Source: Lachnospiraceae bacterium (GTDB taxonomy: Bacteria > Bacillota > Clostridia > Lachnospirales > Lachnospiraceae). From it: a stretch of 64,000 bases of DNA. The stretch's first letter is position 1; each line of letters begins with the position of its first letter. The notes beneath the pieces are model-generated. The model worked only from the letters and a program-made list of their open reading frames with translations. It had not been told where the DNA came from and did no database searches. A program made the translations under genes and the position numbers. The stretch is from contig JAIDFQ010000042.1 in the NCBI GenBank assembly GCA_029054245.1, forward strand, positions 1 through 64,000, read 5' to 3'. Positions 527 to 41,119 of the stretch are shown in pieces.

Positions 527-553
527 TGCTTTTTCTTGCAAAAAATAATCCTT

Positions 554-917
554 ATGTAACAGTCCAGCCCACAGGGGCGGTGCAGCAGGGGCGATATGAC
601 ACCTACAGAAAAGAACCGCTGCCGCTGACATCGCGCCCTATCGTTTCAAGTCTCGTCTACAAATCGGATTTCACTAACAGAATTGGATATAGATGATTCC
701 ATACGGACGGGACAGAGCCCAGCGGCATCCGTGCCGCATGGCTCTTAATCCGGCATCCATGCCGGATTCCCCTGATATTCACCAATTCTGTAAGTGAAAT
801 TGCCGATTTTTCGCCAGAGCCTTGAAACGATAGGGCGCGATGTCAGCGGCAGCGGTTCTTTTCTGTAGGTGTCATATCGCCCCTGCTGCACCGCCCCTGT
901 GGGCTGGACTGTTACAT
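554..917. repeat. 364-bp foldback element with perfect 97-bp inverted arms
   Basis: Positions 554-650 and 821-917 are exact reverse complements over 97 bp. Pairing continues inward, with a few mismatches and a 2-nt indel, to about 687 and 782. The central loop holds two smaller hairpins built on the same core: GCGGCA/TGCCGC (722-737, inside GAGCC/GGCTC) and AATCCGGCAT/ATGCCGGATT (747-768). The 4-bp CCTT flanks both outer ends (550-553 and 918-921) and could be a target-site duplication. The element is visibly richer in G+C than its surroundings. No convincing protein is encoded. It sits between the plsC stop (930) and the tRNA-Ser promoter and would form a very stable RNA hairpin 13 nt after plsC. 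A MITE-like element is the best guess; a structural RNA or terminator is the alternative. Confidence 0.85.
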
Positions 918-929
918 CCTTATTATCTT

Positions 930-40971: not shown

Positions 40972-41063
40972 TTACATCACTTCCTTCTTTCTTACTCTTA
41001 TACCTGTTATATTTGAAAACATTGTAGCATGTGCCTATTCCTTTGTACATAATCATTTCAAGA

Positions 41064-41119
41064 ATTATAATTGCACCAATTACAATTGCACCAATTACAA
41101 TTGCACCAATTATAATTGG
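41064..41119. repeat. tandem 15-bp repeat reaching into the ABC-F stop
   Basis: Near-identical 15-bp units ATTACAATTGCACCA (with T/C variation in the fifth base) run from 41064 to about 41108, closing with the perfect palindrome CCAATTATAATTGG (41106-41119). The ABC-F gene reads into the palindrome and stops there. Probably a slippage-prone 3' untranslated repeat. Confidence 0.85.

Follow-up and report, generated by a model that had tools for sequence, protein, structure and literature searches.

REP/BIME sequences are many dispersed hairpins lying between genes, which often stand as inverted neighbours. In a 2010 listing, the TwoAYGGAY motif (Rfam RF01731) was given as a probable RNA to which no function was assigned (PMC2864571), and it was later proposed to be a CsrA-binding RNA (PMC4333381). 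Among the insertion sequences, the active ISDge4 of the ISBst12 group was described with the tips GTGACTACTCAGCA/GTAACTGCTCAGCA, an 8-bp direct repeat and a single transposase ORF of 449 aa (PMC12898284). Template switching between inverted repeats has been reported to homogenise their arms and to invert their spacers (PMC8604942, PMC8794818).

The foldback analysed here lies in a 64,000-nt stretch of DNA from a Lachnospiraceae bacterium (hereafter the window, meaning the whole stretch), in which only two inverted pairs of at least 24 nt and no more than 700 bp apart were found. The arms of 97 bp, which the original prediction had called identical, were confirmed as the longest perfect inverted arms (554–650 versus 821–917), and when mismatches were allowed, they extended to 540–654/817–931 (115 nt, 95%). 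RNA folding of the 540–931 segment gave −291.1 kcal/mol, while 100 dinucleotide shuffles of it gave −114.63 ± 5.59 (z = −31.57). The two look-alike apical hairpins were also found as predicted, with the motifs CGGCATCCGTGCCG and CGGCATCCATGCCG starting at 723 and 751, that is, 28 bp apart. The CCTT noticed at both ends of the foldback is indeed present, but it is not the whole repeat: it belongs to a perfect 8-bp direct repeat (8/8), ATCCTTAT. Since CCTT is part of this repeat, the element proper was delimited to 556–915 (360 bp). It has the tips GTAACAGTCCAGCC and perfect terminal inverted repeats of 95 bp, while the two outermost bases of the 97-bp arms fall outside of it (Table 1). No transposase-like frame was seen in the 360-bp element when the ORF list was inspected by eye. 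The second inverted pair of the window (41063–41117) is an imperfect one of 26 nt with 81% identity and a 3-nt spacer.

Table 1. Features of the foldback element and of its insertion site (positions in the window)
Feature	Position	Strand	Evidence
tRNA-Ser(GCT)	353–442	−	ARAGORN; Rfam tRNA at 354–441
Promoter-like TTGACA (521–526) and TATAAT (498–503), 17 bp apart, before tRNA-Ser	498–526	−	Read from sequence
Left target duplication ATCCTTAT	548–555		Exact match to 916–923
Left arm, starting with tip GTAACAGTCCAGCC	556–650	+	Perfect inverted match to 821–915
Core, Rfam RF01731 TwoAYGGAY	654–816	−	85.3 bits (gathering score 43), model 1–168 of 168
First hairpin GCGGCATCCGTGCCGC, GGA in minus-strand loop	722–737	−	Sequence; motif start 723, paired in fold
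Second hairpin AATCCGGCATCCATGCCGGATT, GGA in minus-strand loop	747–768	−	Sequence; motif start 751, paired in fold
Right arm, inverted tip at its end	821–915	+	Perfect inverted match to 556–650
Right target duplication ATCCTTAT	916–923		Exact match to 548–555
plsC-like acyltransferase gene, preceding the element in minus-strand direction	930–1637	−	ORF of 235 aa

The core of the element was identified by cmscan as TwoAYGGAY over the whole length of the RF01731 model, and the two apical hairpins proved to be the namesake motifs of this family viewed from the opposite strand. The structural RNA that had been considered among the possible identities of the foldback was thus partly right. The genome contains 45 RF01731 matches, 44 of which are above the cut-off, and a DNA search of the genome listed 69 matching segments, both strands counted. 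Approximately a dozen sites have long arms related to those of the window element, some of them partial or without the core. The remaining RF01731 copies at first appeared to have no more than a core of approximately 192 bp in common; judged by their flanks, these copies are foldbacks, too. Among 60 relatives, all of the same genus and with this genome counted, 17 contained RF01731, and across the order it was detected in 34 of 392 sampled genomes, representing 20 of 174 genera.

The element stands between tRNA-Ser and an ORF which, from its sequence alone, we take to be plsC. The TTGACA and TATAAT boxes of the predicted tRNA-Ser promoter also precede this gene in the relatives. Here, 491 bp separate the end of plsC from tRNA-Ser. 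Of the 26 further plsC loci compared in the genus, 25 have a gap of 78–260 bp and one is truncated by a contig end; the absence of the element at these loci was judged from the gap length, and the sequence was inspected for 14 of the 26. These gaps show that the element is not at the plsC/tRNA-Ser site in the relatives, and the recent insertion that had been offered as one reason for the perfect arms was borne out by the same site being empty at the 25 loci. The window copy is therefore not one conserved in place, nor is it single; a single copy conserved in place had been named in the original prediction as pointing to an RNA rather than to a mobile element.

Mobility was also apparent from the ends of the copies. 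The tip pattern GTWACMGTTCAGMC had 15 matches in the genome, while the reversed control pattern had 0; the tips of the window element carry one C for T compared with this pattern and hence are not among the 15. At the loci examined, which were chosen by core or tips and not by duplications, 29 facing tip pairs were found, some of them being chance pairs. Nineteen of the 29 were flanked by 8-bp duplications that differed at no more than one position, 10 of them being perfect, while by simple arithmetic random 8-mers are expected to match to this extent in about 4 of 10,000 cases. Two tip-only remnants (54 and 136 bp) are flanked by perfect duplications, and several tip-bearing copies (for example, L078, L027, and L016) have no duplication. 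We concluded from the comparison of these loci that 556–915 is a palindromic element that has been transposed and exists in many copies, its tips resembling those of ISBst12/IS66 and its target duplication measuring 8 bp. The dispersed copies anticipated for a mobile element were thus found, although their duplications proved to be 8 bp and not 4 bp long.

Two further kinds of tip-bearing sequences were encountered. A second set of elements, 143–154 bp long and with the same tips, was found by the tips at L116, L117, L119, and L120, with similar ones in the genomes G001 and G002, and most of its members have 8-bp duplications. The copy at L078 (2054–2087; G000:C37:208353–208386) is a 34-bp remnant palindrome with the element tips, located between converging ORFs, where it could act as a terminator.

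The GTAAC...TCAGC-type tips and the 8-bp direct repeats are the features known from the ISBst12 group of the IS66 family (PMC12898284). A candidate helper with corresponding tips occurs in the same genus: the element at L112 is 1,824 bp long, has GTAACTATTCAGCC at both ends and a perfect 8-bp duplication, and encodes a single-ORF IS66-type transposase of 493 aa with the domains PF03050 (IS66 transposase, 72.5 bits) and PF20042. The 478-residue frame at L090 matched PF03050 with 133.1 bits; the tip at this locus starts as that of L112, and no matching duplication was found. The tips GTAACTATTCAGCC in L112 and GTAACTATTCAG in L090 compare with GTAACAGTYCAGCC; against the assignment of the helper, its tips have TA for AG at positions 6–7 of those of the element. 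A DUF6444 domain (PF20042) opens both GTAACTATTCAG-tipped IS66-type transposases (L090, 1015–2448; L112, 679–2157).

Unlike these insertion sequences, the window element lacks a transposase gene, carries the TwoAYGGAY core in its middle, and has arms that are inverted over almost 100 bp, far beyond the tips. A helper encoded by the genome of the window element itself was considered and rejected: no element-type tips were found beside the PF03050 (IS66-type) fragments of this genome, and a search with the L112 transposase detected no relative at E 1e-20. On the basis of the tips, the duplication length and the L112 element, the window element was read as a non-autonomous element of the ISBst12/IS66 type, that is, these features point to a MITE of this kind. 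The suggestion that the foldback is a MITE moved by a transposase encoded elsewhere was therefore supported by the dispersed copies, the duplications, the empty sites and the tip-matched IS66-type element.

Inverted arms of 33–171 aligned columns and 89.6–100% identity surround 43 of the 45 RF01731 matches of the genome, and one of the two armless matches sits at a contig end. Arms were called by local alignment of both flanks, a procedure that favours matching columns. By the same approach, 44 of 48 RF01731 loci in 15 other genera, which were taken from the best scores of 21 genomes and not at random, proved to be armed, often with shorter or less perfect arms. The arm sequence mostly differs from copy to copy, while within each copy the two arms are near-perfect mirror images. 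Comparison of seven orthologous pairs between species revealed 83 aligned columns that had changed in both arms and 16 that had changed in one arm, and in one of the seven pairs (L062b/L064b) mirrored changes were absent. The process is clearly seen in L054/L146, where the core is conserved and the arms have been altered in mirror fashion. In the long subfamily of 8 copies, the 28 pairwise comparisons, which are not independent, gave 495 mirrored and 90 not mirrored changes. These alignments show that the arms are near-perfect within copies, including orthologous copies that have diverged between species.

Active correction, the other explanation that had been proposed for the perfect arms, was likewise upheld, as older copies common to different species keep mirrored arms. 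Capture of gene pieces as the source of the differences between arms is unnecessary, because the orthologous arms drift in place by mirrored changes. Identical arms and inverted spacers are also the outcome of template switching at quasipalindromes, but the cases described there are for the most part short repeats of yeast, rRNA genes and microRNA genes (PMC8604942, PMC8794818, PMC7202029), whereas the arms studied here span 33–171 columns in a dispersed mobile family. At one orthologous intergenic site (L029, 2025–2364; L139, about 1430–1920) the core lies in opposite orientations relative to the flanks, which may have arisen by inversion of the spacer or by a second insertion at the same place. 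For the idea that the foldback is a recombination substrate, the inverted core at this site was the one hint obtained.

The hairpin loops of the core were analysed on both strands. Of the 99 cores of the genus, 79 have at least two GGA hairpin loops on the Rfam strand, while the opposite strand reaches this number in 1 of 99 and shuffled sequences do so in 13 of 990; part of this enrichment follows from the definition of the RF01731 family. In the other genera, at least two such loops were found in 19 of 48 cores. The window core has two of them on the minus strand, and paired GGA loops fit the published CsrA-binding proposal, making the core a putative CsrA ligand. Since csrA was found in this genome, read-through from plsC would give a two-site ligand of this protein. 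Altogether, csrA was found in 50 and RF01731 in 17 of the 60 genomes, this genome having both. The gene was detected in 15 of the 17 genomes with RF01731 and in 35 of the 43 without it. In two copy-rich genomes, G004 (36 RF01731 matches) and G034 (31), the search for csrA was negative; both are less than 90% complete.

Considering all these data, we regard it as likely that the window element is a mobile IS66-type foldback, whose arms are corrected by template switching and whose TwoAYGGAY core is kept via its GGA loops. An ISBst12-group (IS66 family) transposase would act in trans on the tips. The arms would stay mirrored if the hairpin allows template switching at the replication fork, with one arm being copied from its partner, by which any change in a single arm would be either erased or mirrored. 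The core might be kept, although this step is weaker than the previous ones, because the GGA loops of its two hairpins are recognised when single-stranded, the most plausible form being an RNA bound by CsrA upon read-through from a neighbour such as plsC.

An alternative that we consider unlikely is that the element is primarily a functional RNA, where selection for the long helix keeps the arms paired by compensatory changes and transposition merely spread it. That the core is an Rfam family and that the GGA loops are kept on one strand are in line with this alternative. Selection for RNA pairing predicts that the leftover mismatches are G-U rather than A-C. The arms in this genome showed no such preference, with 35 G-U, 46 A-C and 15 other mismatches over 3,892 pairs (p = 0.27; this and the following p values are too small, because the copies are related). 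Neither was it seen in the core pairs of the 99 genus copies (11 G-U, 23 A-C; p = 0.058), a count in which two subtypes were aligned jointly and part of the covariation lies between the subtypes, nor in the apical stems beyond 4 bp in the genus (1 G-U, 15 A-C). In contrast, the other genera lean towards G-U both in the arms (95 G-U, 58 A-C, 93 others; p = 0.003) and in the one core hairpin that was alignable (10 G-U, 0 A-C), an excess that pure correction at the DNA level does not predict and that therefore counts against the explanation favoured here. The core of the copies of G415 alone, a genome from another genus, was nevertheless near even (7 G-U, 5 A-C). The arm mismatches of this genome and of the other genera, counted without the armless places (2 of 45 and 4 of 48, respectively), differ from each other (Fisher p = 0.008).

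A fixed orientation to the neighbouring genes, which were called from ORF length only, was not found either: 23 of the 45 copies lie between tandem, 10 between divergent and 8 between convergent neighbours, 4 being undecided, and among the tandem ones the Rfam strand is the same as that of the neighbours in 9 and the opposite in 14 cases. The lack of a G-U preference in this genome and genus suggests that DNA-level correction dominates in this genus, while the G-U excess elsewhere suggests that the element is used as RNA there, too; we conclude that some hosts at least probably make use of the Rfam strand in RNA form.

Far less probable is that the inverted neighbours are the ends of a larger cassette or belong to a REP/RAYT-like system with a Y1 transposase. 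Many RF01731 matches indeed stand in minus-then-plus order: 12 of the 13 neighbour pairs inspected were minus-plus and one was plus-plus, and five of them (L062–L066) have ORFs between the copies, as judged by eye. Dispersed intergenic hairpins and inverted neighbours are common to this family and REP/BIME, but the window family has 8-bp duplications and IS66-type tips. Moreover, the duplications bound single elements and the two cores are less than 700 bp apart in 8 of the 13 pairs, which disfavours such a cassette. That the arms are an assembly artefact is hardly credible, since, even though window and contig start together, 547 bases ahead of the element, arms are present at 43 of the 45 places in this genome and at 44 of the 48 loci from other genera, including the one-contig genome G415, and the window copy is bounded by a target duplication.

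Compared with TwoAYGGAY as described so far, the window core matches the whole RF01731 model, but mobility, copy number and long variable arms do not appear in the available portions of the published description (PMC2864571, PMC4333381). Our literature searches returned no publication on a TwoAYGGAY that moves. Each of the components (MITEs, IS66 elements, TwoAYGGAY, template switching) is already known; new, as far as these searches reach, is the finding that TwoAYGGAY forms the centre of a family of mobile foldbacks whose mirrored arms are specific to each copy. A more far-reaching view, which we put forward tentatively and which may well claim too much, sees in TwoAYGGAY the payload of a palindromic, mobile DNA element rather than an ordinary stand-alone RNA. 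According to this proposal, template switching would make much of the pairing covariation seen in the genus, and transposition would scatter paired CsrA-type hairpins beside dozens of genes, whereby an element of parasite-like nature would load or rewire a global regulator.

The preferred explanation, a mobile IS66-type foldback with corrected arms, provides a way in which an Rfam family listed in 2010 without function can move, as well as a picture of its copy numbers. The family moreover gives a natural example of mirrored changes, usually taken as evidence of a functional RNA helix, that are common (83 versus 16 columns) in the genus without the G-U intermediates which RNA selection would lead one to expect. 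The share of RNA covariation that is due to DNA template switching would be testable here, as each genome provides dozens of natural replicates.
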